The notes beneath the pieces are model-generated. The model ran no database searches. It saw nothing but the letters and a program-made list of their open reading frames with translations, and was not told the origin of the DNA. A stretch of 64,000 nt of DNA, from positions 45,283 through 109,282 of the IMG/VR virus record IMGVR_UViG_3300043436_002883; one strand, written 5' to 3'. Of this stretch, positions 2,163 through 55,950 are shown piece after piece. Made by a program: the position numbers and the translations under genes. Within the stretch, counting starts at the first letter, position 1. The number at the start of each line of letters is the position of its first letter. Origin of the DNA: a virus.

Positions 2163-4097
2163 ATGTCTAAGACTATTGCAAACCCATACGAAAATTTTAT
2201 TGCGTTATCACGTTACGCTAGATGGATTCCAGAAGAGAATAGACGTGAGACATGGGGAGAAACAGTAGATCGATATTTTTCTTTTATGTTAAATCATTTA
2301 AAAGAAAATCATAATTATATTCCAACTGAGAAGCTTGTAGCGGAATTAAAAGACGGTGTATTTAACAGAAATGTGATGCCGTCTATGCGCTCCGTGATGA
2401 CATCAGGAGCAGCATTAGAAAGAGACAATGTGGCTGGATACAATTGTTCATTTGTTCCAGTAGATTCTCCACGTTCATTTGATGAAACAATGTATATTCT
2501 TATGTGCGGAACAGGTGTAGGATTTTCTGTTGAATACAAGTACGTTAATAAACTTCCTGCCGTCCCAGATTCGTTTGAAAAGTCAGATACAGTAATTGTT
2601 GTAGAAGATTCAAAACAGGGTTGGGCAAAAGCATATCGTGAGCTACTAGCATTGCTCTGGACTGGACACATTCCAGCAATTGACGTTTCTAAAGTACGTC
2701 CCGCAGGTGCACGTCTTAAGACAATGGGTGGACGCTCATCGGGACCACAACCACTTGTAAATCTTTTTGATTTTACTATTGCAAAGTTTAAAAATGCAGC
2801 AGGTCGTCAACTTAAGCCTATTGAGGCGCATGACATTATGTGTAAGATTGGAGAAGTTGTTGTCGTTGGCGGAGTACGTAGATCAGCAATGATTTCTCTT
2901 TCCAACATTAATGATATTGAGATGGCTGCAGCAAAGTCAGGCAACTGGTGGGAAAATAATACACAACGTGCACTTTCAAATAACTCTGTTGCTTATTCAC
3001 GCAAGCCAGAGATGGAGCAGTTTATAGCAGAATGGAAAAACCTTTATGATTCAAAATCAGGAGAACGAGGTATATACAATGTGGCCGCAGCTCAAGCCCA
3101 AGCAGCCAAGTATGGAAGAAGAGATCCAGATATTCACTACGGAACTAACCCATGCTCAGAGATTATCTTACGTCCTTACCAGTTTTGTAATCTTTCAGAA
3201 GTCGTACTTCGTGAAAAAGATACAGTTGAAGATGTTGCAAACAAAGTTCGCCTTGCTACAATTTTGGGAACATGGCAATCAACGCTAACAGATTTTAAGT
3301 ATTTACGTAAAATATGGAAAGATAATACAGAAGAAGAACGCCTGCTTGGTGTATCCTTAACTGGACAATTTGGACATAAGTTCTTTTCTGGAAAGCAGGG
3401 CTTGGATAAGTTGGAAACAACTCTATCGGGTCTTCGTGAATATGCAAGAGAAACGAATAAAGAAGAGGCTGGGAAAATTGGGATTCCTGAGTCTGCAGCT
3501 ATTACATGTGTAAAGCCTTCTGGCACAGTATCTCAATTGGTCGGGGTATCTTCAGGAATGCATCCTTGGCATTCACCATATTACATTCGTACAGTTCGTG
3601 GCTCAAAGGGAGATCCAATTTCTACATTCTTAAAGGAAGTCGGAATTCCAGTAGAAGATGATGTTATGAAGCCAAATGATACATACGTATTTTCATTTCC
3701 AGTTAAGGCACCAGAGGGTGCAATTGTTAGAAATGATTTAACAGCATTAGACCACCTAAATACATGGTTAGTTTATCAACGTGCATGGTGTGAGCACAAG
3801 CCTTCAATTACAGTTTCTGTAAAAGAAGATGAGTGGATGGAGGTTGGGGCATGGGTATATAAGCATTTTGATGAGGTATCTGGAATTTCATTCCTGCCTC
3901 ATTCAGATCACTCATACAAGCAGGCTCCCTACCAAGAAGTAGATAAAGCAGAATATGATGCACTTGTTGCAAAGATGCCTAAAGAAATTCGCTGGGAAGA
4001 TTTATCTTTTTATGAGACAGAAGATGGCACTTCTACTAATGCCACTCTTGCCTGCAGCTCAGATGGAAACTGTGAGCTTGTAGATATTTCCGCTTAA
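2163..4097 (+). CDS. nrdJ: Adenosylcobalamin-dependent (class II, monomeric) ribonucleotide reductase
   Basis: NrdJ reduces ribonucleoside triphosphates to deoxynucleotides using coenzyme B12, with no oxygen requirement and no small subunit. Key residues line up with the Lactobacillus enzyme: C331 in NPCSEI (thiyl radical), E333, the disulfide pair C95 (YNCSF) and C342 (QFCNLSE), and C-terminal C631/C637 that re-reduce the active site. C331 and C342 are 11 residues apart, as are C408 and C419 in the Lactobacillus enzyme. At 644 aa it is shorter than the roughly 740 aa cellular type, as is usual for phage forms. There is no intein at NPCSEI. It has its own promoter. It supplies dNTPs for phage DNA and depends on host cobalamin. 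Confidence 0.95.
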   Translation: MSKTIANPYENFIALSRYARWIPEENRRETWGETVDRYFSFMLNHLKENHNYIPTEKLVAELKDGVFNRNVMPSMRSVMTSGAALERDNVAGYNCSFVPVDSPRSFDETMYILMCGTGVGFSVEYKYVNKLPAVPDSFEKSDTVIVVEDSKQGWAKAYRELLALLWTGHIPAIDVSKVRPAGARLKTMGGRSSGPQPLVNLFDFTIAKFKNAAGRQLKPIEAHDIMCKIGEVVVVGGVRRSAMISLSNINDIEMAAAKSGNWWENNTQRALSNNSVAYSRKPEMEQFIAEWKNLYDSKSGERGIYNVAAAQAQAAKYGRRDPDIHYGTNPCSEIILRPYQFCNLSEVVLREKDTVEDVANKVRLATILGTWQSTLTDFKYLRKIWKDNTEEERLLGVSLTGQFGHKFFSGKQGLDKLETTLSGLREYARETNKEEAGKIGIPESAAITCVKPSGTVSQLVGVSSGMHPWHSPYYIRTVRGSKGDPISTFLKEVGIPVEDDVMKPNDTYVFSFPVKAPEGAIVRNDLTALDHLNTWLVYQRAWCEHKPSITVSVKEDEWMEVGAWVYKHFDEVSGISFLPHSDHSYKQAPYQEVDKAEYDALVAKMPKEIRWEDLSFYETEDGTSTNATLACSSDGNCELVDISA

Positions 4098-26622: not shown

Positions 26623-27672
26623 ATGAGCAATGAAACATTAGAAAAGGCCGTAAACGCTGGTACTCAGGTATCAACAGGATTCGGTTCAACAACTGGTGGA
26701 ACAGGAGTACACGTAGCGTCAGAAAATGGCAACGGTGGACTTCTAAACCCAGAACAATCTGCTCGCTTCCTTGACTATATGTTCGACGCAACCGTAATCG
26801 GTAAGGTCGCACGTACAGTTCGTATGAAGTCAGACACAGCAGAAATTGATCGCATGTCAGTAGGCGAAAAGCTTATGAAGCTTGCGACAGAGGCAGACAA
26901 TACTGCAGTTAACTCAGCAGTAACTTTCTCAAAGATTTCTTTGACAACAAAGAAGCTACGCATGGATTGGGAGCTTTCAACAGAGTCTCTAGAAGATAAC
27001 ATCGAAGGTGCAGATCTAGAAGATCACATTGCACGTTTGATGGCAACACAGGCAGGAAATGACATCGAAGATGTTATTCTTAACGGTGATGCATCTAATA
27101 CAGGAGACGCTCTTTACAAGTCATTTGATGGCGTTGTAAAGAAGGCAAAGGCATCAGGTCGTGTCGTAGACGCAGCTGGCGCTAACGTATCACGTGAAGT
27201 ATTCAACAAGGCACTTAAGGCTATGCCACGTAAGTACAAGCAACGTCGTGGAGACCTTCGCTTCCTTGCTGGATCAAACTTGATTCAGGATTTCCTATAT
27301 GCTAACAGCATTGGAACAAATCAGACAATCCCACAGGATATCGCTTCAAGCGTAATTCGTGGAGGAGTTGCACCACTAGGTGGACCTGCAGGATATGTGG
27401 CACCATTCGCATTTGGTATTCCAATTGTTGAAGTTCCACTACTTCCAGAGACACAGACTGGAACACATTCAGGAGCCGCTGGTTCACATGGAGATATCCA
27501 CTTGACATTCCCAAATAACGTAGTTATTGGAATCAAGCGTGACGTAACCGTTTACCGCTTCTTCGTACCACGTAAGGACACAATCGAGTACACAATGTAT
27601 ACTCGTGTAGGTGTTCAGATTGAACAAGCAGATGCTTGGGTAGTCGTAAAGAACGTTAAGGTTGCTTCTTAA
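26623..27672 (+). CDS. Major capsid protein (HK97 fold)
   Basis: The 349 aa protein has the HK97-type order: a variable N-arm rich in Gly/Thr, SARFLDYMFDATVIG near residue 46 (start of the N-terminal delta-domain-like part), then MSVGEKLMKLATEADN, the A-domain with GDLRFLAGSNLIQDFLYA near residue 205 and FGIPIVEVPLLPE near residue 265, and IGIKRDVTVYRFFVPRKDT near the end. Codon use shifts to CGT/CGC for Arg, unlike the AGA-rich fibre genes, as expected for high expression. A strong terminator follows. Confidence 0.9.
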   Translation: MSNETLEKAVNAGTQVSTGFGSTTGGTGVHVASENGNGGLLNPEQSARFLDYMFDATVIGKVARTVRMKSDTAEIDRMSVGEKLMKLATEADNTAVNSAVTFSKISLTTKKLRMDWELSTESLEDNIEGADLEDHIARLMATQAGNDIEDVILNGDASNTGDALYKSFDGVVKKAKASGRVVDAAGANVSREVFNKALKAMPRKYKQRRGDLRFLAGSNLIQDFLYANSIGTNQTIPQDIASSVIRGGVAPLGGPAGYVAPFAFGIPIVEVPLLPETQTGTHSGAAGSHGDIHLTFPNNVVIGIKRDVTVYRFFVPRKDTIEYTMYTRVGVQIEQADAWVVVKNVKVAS

Positions 27673-27693
27673 TTAATTAAGAAATAGACCCCG

Positions 27694-27724
27694 AAAGGCC
27701 CCCAATTAATTTTGGGGGCTTTTC
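27694..27724 (+). terminator. Intrinsic terminator after the major capsid gene
   Basis: GCCCCCAA (27698-27705) pairs with TTGGGGGC (27712-27719), extended by an A-rich/T-rich outer stem, and is followed by TTTTCATTTT. It limits read-through from the capsid transcript into the connector genes. Confidence 0.85.
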
Positions 27725-51873: not shown

Positions 51874-52311
51874 ATGGCAACAAATTCATTTATACCAGTT
51901 ACATTTAACGACGGGGAGCCACTAGATCCTACAAAGTTAAATAAGCTGGTTGATAATATAAATAATATATATCAGTCTAATGCCATATCCTTATCTAACT
52001 CATCAACAGGAACAGCTCCTCAAGTTCCCGTTATATTTACATTTAGACATAAGTTTGAAAATGTAGCTGCTGGAAAGCCACAGAGCACTGTTTTTAATTT
52101 TGGTGATAAGTTTACTCAGGCTGAGCTATCCGCAAGCAAAGTATACGTTTCTACAGGAATAAAGGCTTCTATAAACGATAAAGATGTTATAACCGCAAGC
52201 GTAGGTGGAGTTAATACAGGAAGCCCAACGCTATTTGTTAATTTTAGTGGAGACAAAACCCGCACCATATATGTAGATGTAATAGCAATCTGCATGAGGG
52301 ATATCATTTAG
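51874..52311 (+). CDS. Small virion protein at the end of the structural block, 145 aa
   Basis: The protein is beta-rich in its second half (TFRHKFENVAAGKPQST, then VGGVNTGSPTLFVNFSGDKTRTIYVDVIAI), and its N-terminus (FIPVTFNDGEPLDPTKLNKLVDNIN) has the FNDGEPLDP-type motif seen in small fibre- or baseplate-associated phage proteins. An AAGGAG site precedes it. It is the last gene before the regulatory region that starts the replication module. Confidence 0.55.
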   Translation: MATNSFIPVTFNDGEPLDPTKLNKLVDNINNIYQSNAISLSNSSTGTAPQVPVIFTFRHKFENVAAGKPQSTVFNFGDKFTQAELSASKVYVSTGIKASINDKDVITASVGGVNTGSPTLFVNFSGDKTRTIYVDVIAICMRDII

Positions 52312-52316
52312 ATCCC

Positions 52317-52344
52317 TTGACAAGCCCAACAAATATGTTACAAT
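52317..52344 (+). promoter_or_regulatory. Strong promoter for the replication module
   Basis: TTGACA (52317-52322), 16 bases, TACAAT (52339-52344) with TGt in front. The predicted start is near 52351, inside the palindrome at 52335-52355. An intrinsic terminator begins only six bases further on. Confidence 0.75.
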
Positions 52345-52355
52345 TACTGTAACAT
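52335..52355. promoter_or_regulatory. Operator-like palindrome over the promoter
   Basis: ATGTTACA (52335-52342) and TGTAACAT (52348-52355) form a perfect 8-base inverted repeat separated by five bases (ATTAC). It covers the -10 box and the predicted transcription start, where a bound repressor would block RNA polymerase. No repressor gene was recognised in the window; the HTH-like protein at 53330 is one candidate. Confidence 0.65.
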
Positions 52356-52356
52356 C

Positions 52357-52381
52357 AAAGTCACGTACCCGTGACTTTTTT
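52357..52381 (+). terminator. Intrinsic terminator just downstream of the replication promoter
   Basis: AAAGTCACG (52357-52365) pairs with CGTGACTTT (52370-52378) around TACC, followed by further T. It can end the structural-block transcript, but it also lies directly after the promoter at 52317, so that promoter would give an RNA of only about 30 bases unless read-through or antitermination occurs. Confidence 0.8.
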
Positions 52382-52398
52382 ACATATTAAGGTAGAAA

Positions 52399-53199
52399 AT
52401 GAGCAACGATTTAAAATGGATGATTTCATCCGACCAGCAATTTCCATATCAAGATGATAAGATGATTGCCCTATGGTTTAAAGTAATGAAATGGTTTAAG
52501 CCAGACGTTGTGGACTACCTTGGTGATACAGATGATCAGGCTTGCTACAGCAAGTACACAGAAGGCAAATCAGCAGAGTTCTTAAATTACCATAAGAATG
52601 ATAGCAAAGATCTTATTGTTCCTATGATGCGACATGAAGCAAAAGGAGCAAGAGATTTTTATGCCAAGACAAGAGAGATGCTCCCTGATGCCCAGCTATT
52701 TTCAGCCTTAGGCAATCACGACATTAGAGTGTTTAATTATGTAGACGCAAAGTTACCAGAGTATATATCTGAGGTAACACCAGAGTCTATGTGGAGCCTA
52801 GATTCATTGGGCTATGAATACATTTATTACAACGAACTTCCTAGACGACGCTTTGGAGATATTCACGTACACCATGGACTTTCAATTGCAGCAGGCGGTG
52901 CAGTAAGAAAAGATATGGAAGATCTACAGATATCATTAATCCGTGGACACTCACATAGAATTGCTTCACATATGGTAACATATGAACTTAGAAACAACGG
53001 AGAAGGCGAGACACTTCGTGGCTATGAAATTGGACATATGTGTGATGAGAAGAGTGACGGAATGAAGTATAGCCAACACCACGACTGGCAAAAAGGATTT
53101 GCTGTAGCGCATATCGTAAATGACTATCCACATATTCAAATGATTCACGTATCTCCTGACTACTCATGTGTAGTAGACGGAAAGGTATTTACTCTATAA
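52399..53199 (+). CDS. Calcineurin-like metallophosphoesterase
   Basis: The 266 aa protein shows the metallophosphatase motifs in order: SDQQ (D-x-Q in place of the usual D-x-H), GDTDD, GNHD, HVHHG and GHSHR. This fold hydrolyses phosphomonoesters or phosphodiesters using two metals. It is the first gene of the replication module and starts after an AGGTAGAA site. Its stop overlaps the next start (TAATG). Substrate unknown; roles in DNA end processing or nucleotide scavenging are possible. Confidence 0.85.
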   Translation: MSNDLKWMISSDQQFPYQDDKMIALWFKVMKWFKPDVVDYLGDTDDQACYSKYTEGKSAEFLNYHKNDSKDLIVPMMRHEAKGARDFYAKTREMLPDAQLFSALGNHDIRVFNYVDAKLPEYISEVTPESMWSLDSLGYEYIYYNELPRRRFGDIHVHHGLSIAAGGAVRKDMEDLQISLIRGHSHRIASHMVTYELRNNGEGETLRGYEIGHMCDEKSDGMKYSQHHDWQKGFAVAHIVNDYPHIQMIHVSPDYSCVVDGKVFTL

Positions 53200-53384
53200 T
53201 GTGGTGCGGTAAATGTAGTGGACGGGTTTTTATAGATAGAGTATTTTCTCAAAAACTACATATGGAGTTATTTTGTATCATGTGCGGCAGACGCTGGATG
53301 TGCAATAAGGAGACGAGTGCTTTTGGAAAATGGCTAGACAAAAAAGAAACAACAAACTCAAAAAGATACGGTATTTCTTCTTAA
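53199..53384 (+). CDS. Zinc-ribbon small protein, 61 aa
   Basis: The start ATG at 53199 forms TAATG with the previous stop. The protein begins MWCGKCSGR and has a second CxxC pair (FCIMCGRRW) 22 residues on, the layout of a zinc ribbon. The remainder is Lys/Thr-rich. Such proteins often bind nucleic acid or protein partners. It overlaps the next gene by 55 bases. Confidence 0.65.
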   Translation: MWCGKCSGRVFIDRVFSQKLHMELFCIMCGRRWMCNKETSAFGKWLDKKETTNSKRYGISS

Positions 53385-53812
53385 ACGATAAGATACACAA
53401 AGTAATTAAATCATCTAGATCAAAGGATGAAATAGTTGCTTGGTGCTACCCAGATAAAAAAAGAGTTATGTATTCATACTCACAGGTTGAAAAGTACATG
53501 GGTAAAGCTTACGGGATGAAAGAAGTATCTGGTTTGTTAAATAAGCATACCGTAACTCTGCATGACTATATTTTGGAGGGCAAGATAAAGGCTCCTCAAA
53601 AAATATATCCAATAGGTGATCCAGAAAACAAAAATTGGTCTAAGTATATGTTTTGTGAAAAAGATATATTAGATCTTCATGAGTTTATATTAGATTCAGG
53701 ACACTCTGGCAATGTTCCTTCAAGAACAGAATTATTGGGGCTTCTCAAACACAACATTATATTGTATACTAAGACAGACAGCGGGTTCATACCAGTCTGG
53801 AAGGCGGAGTAA
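53330..53812 (+). CDS. Putative HTH (MerR/excisionase-like) DNA-binding protein, 160 aa
   Basis: The centre of this protein (YGMKEVSGLLNKHTVTLHDY, then ILEGKIKAPQKIYPIG and KYMFCEKDILDLHEFI) has the winged-helix pattern of MerR/excisionase-like domains. A basic N-terminus (RQKRNNKLKKIRYFF) would aid DNA contact. Small HTH proteins at this place often control early transcription. It is a candidate regulator of the palindrome at 52335. Assignment is moderate, as no sequence search was possible. Confidence 0.55.
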   Translation: MARQKRNNKLKKIRYFFLNDKIHKVIKSSRSKDEIVAWCYPDKKRVMYSYSQVEKYMGKAYGMKEVSGLLNKHTVTLHDYILEGKIKAPQKIYPIGDPENKNWSKYMFCEKDILDLHEFILDSGHSGNVPSRTELLGLLKHNIILYTKTDSGFIPVWKAE

Positions 53813-54122: not shown

Positions 54123-54429
54123 GAAAGAACCGTACGTACTAATTGGCTTGTATTTATCTTTGTATAAAGAAAAGTATAATAAGTCTCTTACCGTTAATAG
54201 GTTTAGAGAAAAATGGGCTATGAATGACGTTATTGAAAGCGTAGGCTTTGAACGTGCTAAAGAACTTTTAATATATTATTTTGCTACCAACAAGCAAGGT
54301 CATCCATTAAACTTTTTCTATAACAACTTTGACAGAATTGATTCATTAAACAAAGAAATTAAAAAGGACAAGATTAACCGAAGCATCCTTTTGGGTGAGA
54401 CGAAGAAGATGGTGGAGGGCGAAGAGTGA
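54112..54429 (+). CDS. Hypothetical protein before the helicase, 105 aa
   Basis: Translation would begin at GTG (54112) inside the end of the previous gene. The protein is helical and basic (YLSLYKEKYNKSLTVNRFRE, then RAKELLIYYFATNKQGHPLNFFYNNF). Its position directly before the DnaB-like helicase suggests a loader or helicase partner, but no loader motif (P-loop or AAA) is present. The stop overlaps the helicase start. Confidence 0.5.
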   Translation: MASEKEPYVLIGLYLSLYKEKYNKSLTVNRFREKWAMNDVIESVGFERAKELLIYYFATNKQGHPLNFFYNNFDRIDSLNKEIKKDKINRSILLGETKKMVEGEE

Positions 54430-55691
54430 ATACAGAAGCAACATTAATCTCTGCTGTATGTAAGAATAAAGATATCAGCACACTATTGGCGGACAACGTA
54501 GACGAGCTCTTTACATCACATAGAGACATTTGGGAAAGCTTAAAAGGATACTACTATAAGTTTAAAGCAGTTCCAGAGGTTGGAGTCTTAATTGAAAGAC
54601 ATAAAGATTTTGAGCCAGTAGAAACAAAGGCAGAAACTGGATACTACTTAGACATGCTTAAGAATGAATTTATTTCAAATAAGCTTAAGTCTATTATTAT
54701 TAAAGGTGGATCTTCACTTAAAGAAGATGCTGCATCAAGAGTTCTTGCACAAATGCAAAGCGATCTTGCCAACCTAAGCAGGTTTACAAACAACGTTCGT
54801 GACTTAGATATTATTGATGTTGAAAATGCTGCAAGACATTATGAGGCAGTAAAAGAGCGTTCATCCGTAATGGGTGGTGCGCCAGGAATCCTAACTGGGT
54901 TTAGCGCTATTGATAAAGCTTATCCAACTGGAATGGCCCCAGGACATCTTATTGTCGCTATTGGCTGGCCAGGACGTGGTAAGACATGGTTTACATCATA
55001 CCTAGCCTGCAAGGCTTGGGAGCAAGGCTTTAAGCCAATGATCGTGTCTCTTGAAATGTCTCCAGAAAATATGCGTGACCGTATTTTTACTATGCTCGGC
55101 TCTGGTATATTTAAAGCAAGTGATTTGTCAAAGGGAGATATTAATATTGATGACTTCCGATCATGGGGTAATAAAAAGTTTGAGGGCAAGAATAGTTTTG
55201 TGCTTATTTCAAATGAAGGTGCTGCAGAAGTTACTCCAGCAACTATTCAAGGAAAGATTGACCAGCATAAGCCTGACCTAGTTATCCTTGATTACCATCA
55301 ATTATTTAATGATAATAAGAGATCTAATTCTGAAGTTGAACGAAATCGAAATGTGTCTCGTGAGTTTAAGATGCTTGCTGTGTCAAACAATATTCCTATT
55401 ATTGACATCACAGCAGCAACAGCTGACGATGTTTCAGATCAAGACAATCCACCTATGATGAGTCAGGTTGCTTGGTCTAAAGCAATTGAATATGATGCTG
55501 ATATGGCAATGGCAGTTCATAGATATCCTCAGAGTAATATGATTGAGATCGTATCTAGAAAGAATAGACACGGGCACGACTTTAATTTCTATCTAGACTG
55601 GGATATCAACCGTGGTATCGTCAAGGAAATTTACGAAAATCCATTTGAGAATGAATCACAAACAGATAAAAAGATTCCAAGTAAAGGTTGA
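54426..55691 (+). CDS. dnaB: DnaB-like replicative helicase
   Basis: The 421 aa protein starts at GTG (54426), overlapping the previous stop, with GGAGGG upstream. The Walker A motif GWPGRGKT lies at about residues 180-187 and the Walker B region LVILDYHQLF near 285, with a helical N-terminal domain. It unwinds DNA as a hexamer at the fork. It has the reduced N-terminal domain of many phage DnaB proteins. The primase follows after one small gene. Confidence 0.85.
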   Translation: MNTEATLISAVCKNKDISTLLADNVDELFTSHRDIWESLKGYYYKFKAVPEVGVLIERHKDFEPVETKAETGYYLDMLKNEFISNKLKSIIIKGGSSLKEDAASRVLAQMQSDLANLSRFTNNVRDLDIIDVENAARHYEAVKERSSVMGGAPGILTGFSAIDKAYPTGMAPGHLIVAIGWPGRGKTWFTSYLACKAWEQGFKPMIVSLEMSPENMRDRIFTMLGSGIFKASDLSKGDINIDDFRSWGNKKFEGKNSFVLISNEGAAEVTPATIQGKIDQHKPDLVILDYHQLFNDNKRSNSEVERNRNVSREFKMLAVSNNIPIIDITAATADDVSDQDNPPMMSQVAWSKAIEYDADMAMAVHRYPQSNMIEIVSRKNRHGHDFNFYLDWDINRGIVKEIYENPFENESQTDKKIPSKG

Positions 55692-55950
55692 GTTTCAAGA
55701 TGATTCTGGTATTCCAAGACTAAGATATCAATATGAAAGCATGCTAACGCATGATATGAGGAGTAAAGGATATGTCAGAGTTCTTGACATAGACACCAAC
55801 TTTTCGGTACAATTTGACGGAGAAACCTGGGTGTTCTTAATGACACTCTATGGAGTATATGTAGGAAAGAAGAAGGCATGGCTATCAGAGGGCATAACGC
55901 AAGGAAAGTTGATTCCACGCAGTATGCGCCAAACCATATCAAGTCAGTAA
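55651..55950 (+). CDS. Hypothetical small protein between helicase and primase, 99 aa
   Basis: The frame runs 41 bases into the helicase gene and 73 bases into the primase gene. It has a beta-rich centre (VLDIDTNFSVQFDGETWVFLMTLYGVYVG) and a basic end. It has a weak start site (TTGAGA-ATG). Overlaps are longer than usual for this genome, so it is less certain than its neighbours, but the gap between helicase and primase would otherwise be 186 bases. Confidence 0.5.
   Translation: MNHKQIKRFQVKVEFQDDSGIPRLRYQYESMLTHDMRSKGYVRVLDIDTNFSVQFDGETWVFLMTLYGVYVGKKKAWLSEGITQGKLIPRSMRQTISSQ

Follow-up and report, generated by a model that had tools for sequence, protein, structure and literature searches.

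A probable attenuated promoter ahead of the replication operon in large, probably actinobacterial, phages

Gene content and sequence features of the junction

The DNA analyzed here, a stretch of 64,000 nucleotides referred to as the window, belongs to a 109,282-base virus record. Its structural (tail-region) block ends with a plus-strand gene from the ORF list (51874..52311), whose product had no family match in Pfam and PHROG searches. An 87-nt gap containing a promoter, a palindrome, and a hairpin separates this gene from a plus-strand metallophosphoesterase gene (52399..53199; phrog_221; E value, 7.7e-54) that opens the replication block. It is followed by genes for a MerR-like winged-helix protein (the HTH protein; 53330..53812, plus strand; phrog_9440), which is a candidate regulator, a DnaB-like replicative helicase (54426..55691, plus strand; phrog_19; E value, 1.2e-66), a primase, a single-strand binding protein, and a RecA-like protein. 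The order minor tail protein, metallophosphoesterase, HTH protein, and DnaB was also found in Rhodococcus phages NiceHouse, Grayson, and Trina, and Streptomyces phages Comrade, Wakanda, Circinus, and Blueeyedbeauty share the same tail-to-DnaB gene order. The PHROG matches and the synteny with named phages show that the junction between structural and replication genes proposed in an earlier note on this DNA is real.

The promoter, operator-like palindrome, and terminator that the same note had placed at positions 52317-52381 are all present in the sequence. On the plus strand, a -35 element (TTGACA, 52317-52322), seen in the sequence and by a promoter scan, is followed after a 16-nt spacer by an extended -10 element (TGT-TACAAT, 52336..52344), in which TGT precedes the TACAAT hexamer at 52339-52344; the promoter scanner scored 52317-52344 as 11 of 12 plus TG. 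The palindrome (52335..52355) spans the -10 and the expected start site and has perfect 8+8 arms, ATGTTACA (52335-52342) and TGTAACAT (52348-52355), separated by a 5-nt loop. The intrinsic terminator follows on the plus strand (52357..52381), with a 9-bp stem formed by AAAGTCACG (52357-52365) and CGTGACTTT (52370-52378), a TACC loop, and a run of six Ts (52376-52381). As RNA, the hairpin has a folding energy of -10.7 kcal/mol (z = -5.8). The terminator rule of the scanner misses this site for the sole reason that three of the Ts are taken up by the stem. A transcript starting at approximately 52351 would reach 52381 after about 31 nt if termination were efficient (52351..52381, plus strand), and the terminator stem begins near +7. 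The ribosome-binding site of the metallophosphoesterase gene (AAGG, 52389..52392, plus strand) lies 3′ of the terminator and is kept in relatives.

Across both strands of the 109-kb record, this is the single case of a hairpin plus T run with a strong promoter just upstream; one further promoter-adjacent hairpin plus T run is weak and on the minus strand. A record-wide hairpin scan identified no second plus-strand terminator within or bordering the replication block, so passing the 52357-52381 site would suffice for transcription of the block. The sole other plus-strand terminator-like site in the window is a 13-bp hairpin with a T-rich tail (GAAAGGCCCCC...GGGGGCTTTTC; 27693-27724), located just past the major capsid gene (26623-27672).

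Two other candidate features were rejected. A promoter predicted at 55784 falls within a reading frame that has a protein-coding homologue in two related contigs (L143 and L144), and it is therefore probably due to chance. Four GTNAC motifs of the MtrA/GlnR type occur in the window, spaced 12, 11, and 11 bp apart; in relatives, GTNAC is broken by compensatory stem changes (GCCAC/GTGGC and GTCGC/GCGAC), and thus the motif reflects the hairpin.

Outside the window, the record (G000) carries a WhiB-family transcription factor gene (L370:17557-17868; Pfam Whib; E value, 4.3e-10), which supports an actinobacterial host; the encoded protein could be a regulator acting on phage or host promoters. The hosts of this virus family are probably lake actinobacteria, and we infer a freshwater setting for the phages. 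Elsewhere in the record, a large protein containing an extended tract of PAEEPPAEEPP-type repeats is encoded at L370:12325-14922, and FkbM methyltransferase and carbamoyltransferase genes, possibly involved in glycan modification, occupy one stretch near the terminase (L370:2926-10164). At 53166-53384, overlapping the metallophosphoesterase gene at its end, lies a gene for a small CxxC-rich (zinc-ribbon-like) protein that matches phrog_12850, a family of unknown function; a similar sequence is encoded 5′ of the HTH gene in Wakanda and Circinus.

Conservation and order of the promoter and terminator

The metallophosphoesterase is encoded by hundreds of IMG/VR contigs, and relatives were fetched from IMG/VR using this protein and, additionally, by a search with an exact 22-mer of the element. 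In the first metallophosphoesterase search, a promoter and hairpin lay directly 5′ of the gene in 80/80 loci. Exact matches to the 22-mer were found in 80 stretches, of which 79 continued into a metallophosphoesterase start and the remaining one ended before it, indicating that the element is single-copy. The homologous upstream regions, 217 distinct ones including the loci found with the 22-mer, kept the promoter in 185 cases, and 181 of these 185 promoters carried TTGACA. The promoter rule overlooks some weaker promoters (contigs L299 and L301 were counted as having none), so counts of absence are upper bounds, and the relatives are not independent. Counts of changes along the gene tree were left out owing to its poor resolution, with stars on 26 of the 119 inner branches.

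Pairwise identity was calculated for 51 elements that share the same layout and were recovered independently of the 22-mer. The -10 was the most conserved part (0.97), which argues that the promoter is used. The T tail reached 0.90, the two stem arms 0.80 and 0.74, and the right arm of the palindrome 0.69, compared with 0.53 for the four-fold sites in the next gene. Identity was 0.44 over the first ten spacer positions and 0.39 in the upstream flank; within the spacer, only ATATGT, adjoining the -10, was conserved. The sequence just 3′ of the terminator (0.56) did not rise above the four-fold level.

The pairing itself is maintained. Among 35 distinct sequences, 97.1% of cells in the terminator helix were paired, with both-side changes at 6/9 pairs, and 92.5% in the palindrome helix, with both-side changes at 2/8 pairs; over all cells the figure was 94.9%, falling to 27-53% when the partners were slid. 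The terminator lay between the promoter and the start codon in 128 of the 217 regions and was 5′ of the promoter in 0/217. Thus the downstream position given in the earlier note holds wherever both features occur (128 to 0). The distance from the -10 to the stem was 12-14 nt in 123 of the 128 terminator-bearing regions. Distant relatives, namely, Streptomyces phage Comrade and two contigs with 35-37% identity in the gene (L299 and L301), carry hairpins of unrelated sequence at this position. Judged by this comparison, the promoter and hairpin terminator are clearly functional and under selection, with their order and spacing fixed.

The wider group also contains variants. In 28 relatives the hairpin has no T run, and by the same rule 29 have the promoter and no hairpin, so that termination is not essential across the wider group. 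Eighteen phages without the hairpin have a compact layout, in which the same promoter directly precedes the same gene, and no terminator was found within 1.5 kb upstream in any of them. Hairpins before the HTH gene of Grayson and Trina, which initially looked alike, were not counted, given their weak -35 elements; the Grayson hairpin starts ~3 nt past the -10, ahead of where a normal start site would lie.

These distributions bear on whether the hairpin serves to insulate, ending transcription of the structural operon while the promoter is incidental and the replication genes are expressed through leakage or from elsewhere. Such insulation would fit the position of the hairpin, the sole hairpin plus T run at the end of the structural block and exactly at the module border, where it would also stop incoming transcripts. 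However, the usual arrangement for that purpose, a terminator before the promoter, was seen in none of the 217 relatives, and the 18 compact relatives manage without any terminator in the upstream 1.5 kb. It follows that the junction does not generally require insulation and that the promoter belongs to the replication operon itself. We consider insulation as the main role unlikely. With no upstream terminators and with compact relatives lacking them, the terminator most likely attenuates the RNA of this promoter rather than solely insulating the structural operon, although from its position it would stop incoming structural-gene transcripts as well.

The hairpin could alternatively be a 5′-end structure that protects or shapes the replication mRNA and is no terminator. 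Its stem does start near the 5′ end of the predicted transcript, and the 28 relatives with strong hairpins lacking a T run, e.g., AGGCCATGAATATTCATGGCCT, point the same way. In four contigs (L277, L134, L285, and L108), this hairpin, which folds at ~-17 kcal/mol, replaces the terminator at the same place. In the clade of the window, however, conservation of the T run matches that of the promoter, and a protective hairpin would need no such run. Moreover, the T-less hairpins of the relatives may still terminate in actinobacteria: mycobacterial I-shaped terminators without a T run are described in a review (PMC12288462), which also cites work requiring the U-tract, so views conflict. A purely structural role thus appears improbable.

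Two further readings concern the short RNA itself. A strong promoter with a close terminator would give an abundant 31-nt RNA, which might be a small regulatory RNA and the real product of the locus; against this, the loop and unpaired 5′ end vary freely among relatives, and the best match in an Rfam search (E value, 0.31) fell below the gathering score, making this very improbable. That the RNA primes replication at an origin adjoining the replication genes is suggested by its position and shortness and by nothing else. The GC skew shows no sign change at 52 kb, the sequence 3′ of the terminator is no more conserved than four-fold sites, and we regard a primer as hardly credible.

The palindrome over the -10 and the HTH protein

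The palindrome was perfect in 85 of 185 promoters, compared with 0.0001 in shuffles, and at least 6/8 pairs were kept in 114 of the 185, also far above shuffles. Its arms covary: of 35 sequences, 7 show UA to CG changes and 2 show CG to UA. Within the 64 kb there is one exact copy of the palindrome, and with up to 3 mismatches there were 5 matches against 0.8 expected. Frequent perfect palindromes with covarying arms would be expected if a phage DNA-binding protein, for example the HTH protein encoded at 53330, blocked the -10 through the palindrome and the terminator were of minor importance. The AlphaFold model of the HTH protein (pLDDT, 81.6) suggests a MerR-like fold, its best Foldseek matches being MerR-type DNA-binding domains, albeit with weak E values (none below 0.06).

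The comparison with relatives nevertheless argues against a repressor switch of this kind. Half-sites are separated by 3, 5, 6, or 7 nt among close relatives, unlike the fixed spacing of a dimeric repressor's operator, the right arm is conserved only moderately above four-fold sites, and the partner of the -10 half-site has been lost in many relatives whose elements are otherwise intact. In contigs L056, L108, and L329, the downstream arm is lost, and the -10 half-site instead has an inverted partner 5′ of it (TGTAGC-N5-GCTACA; TGTAGCA-CTA-TGCTACA). A fixed dimer operator would not explain the variable spacing and the upstream partners well. Homologues of the HTH protein are present with and without the palindrome, their helix-turn-helix residues do not follow palindrome type, and no covariation of the protein with the palindrome was detected across relatives. 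Repression by the HTH protein, as put forward in the earlier note, is thus not supported, and we judge a repressor switch to be quite improbable.

Two other roles for the palindrome were considered. An RNA hairpin in read-through transcripts gained no support from a strand test, in which G-U against A-C mismatches stood at 9 to 18, with no strand preference. A bidirectional promoter arising from the symmetric -10 was set aside since relatives do not conserve the final T of the hexamer on the minus strand. We regard the palindrome as a secondary, replaceable feature, most likely a binding site for a regulator; its function is the weakest part of our account. Inverted repeats also flank the -10 of the next gene's promoter after the metallophosphoesterase in Wakanda, Circinus, and Comrade (L095 ~3835-3862, L094 ~3840, and L093 ~3845; e.g., AACTACTCT-GCTATAATG-AGAGTAGTT), and their sequence differs between the phages.

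Attenuation and comparison with phage antitermination systems

Taken together with its context, the element probably serves the phage replication operon as its attenuated promoter. At ~52351, host RNA polymerase carrying the main sigma factor would initiate, meeting the intrinsic terminator after ~30 nt, and only polymerases that read through would transcribe the metallophosphoesterase, HTH protein, helicase, primase, and further replication genes. The terminator would in this way tune or gate the RNA of its own promoter. The locus has the general makeup of a promoter-proximal attenuator, namely, a sigma70-type promoter upstream and a conserved GC-containing hairpin with a T run before the first gene. 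Whether read-through reflects leakage or a phage antitermination factor is about an even call.

Conditional antitermination in the style of lambda Q, AlpA, or GafZ, and with it the conditional read-through suggested in the earlier note, is plausible, but a leaky attenuator would have the same anatomy. In the lambdoid pR′/tR′/Q systems (lambda and 21), as here, one strong promoter is followed by an intrinsic terminator and a long phage operon, a shared layout in which read-through decides expression. The two differ in that pR′ drives late genes and the phage element replication genes, and in that the terminator described here, at ~+30, is nearer than tR′. Q binds between the -35 and -10, whereas the first ten spacer positions of the phage element are no more conserved than four-fold sites and contain no conserved element. 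A -10-like hexamer, TAACAT, lies at ~+1 to +6, the sort of position that the Q pause element occupies (PMC6606751). Among representatives, the pause-like TAnnnT occurred in 32 of 36 with the palindrome and in 10 of 31 lacking it (null, 3.9); its position is also that of a palindrome arm, however, and several of the ten palindrome-less carriers look closely related.

The AlpA-controlled alpBCDE promoter of Pseudomonas aeruginosa likewise has an intrinsic terminator between promoter and first gene, and regulation acts on read-through (PMC7969949). There, AlpA binds an element between the -35 and -10, whereas the phage promoter is variable in this part and has its palindrome over the -10. The GafZ-dependent gene transfer agent promoter of Caulobacter combines a promoter palindrome, a downstream terminator, and antitermination (PMC11150451), with the palindrome between the -35 and -10 and the terminator after the first gene, compared with a palindrome over the -10 and a terminator before the first gene in the phage. 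Since Q, AlpA, and GafZ all bind between the -35 and -10, which is variable here, membership in these systems is not claimed. No member of the Q, AlpA, or GafZ families was identified among the replication-block proteins and a handful of others scanned from the 109-kb record. Palindromes of 17 bp associated with predicted SigA-type promoters are known from another group of actinophages, the Cluster O mycobacteriophages (PMC4351075); those number >30 copies per genome, in contrast to the single copy here. The conserved attenuation point may be described as similar in layout to phage antitermination switches. More speculatively, and although we hold this to be rather unlikely, it could be a new actinophage antitermination switch, in which a factor recognizing the -10 palindrome would allow polymerase to pass a terminator ~30 nt away and so turn on the whole replication operon.

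The element would represent a precise control point for replication-gene expression in abundant, almost unstudied, large, probably freshwater, actinophages. Because its order and spacing are fixed, it offers a good starting point in the search for an antitermination factor outside the Proteobacteria, and the occurrence of hairpins with and without a T run at one homologous site could serve to examine whether termination in actinobacteria depends on the U-tract, a disputed point.
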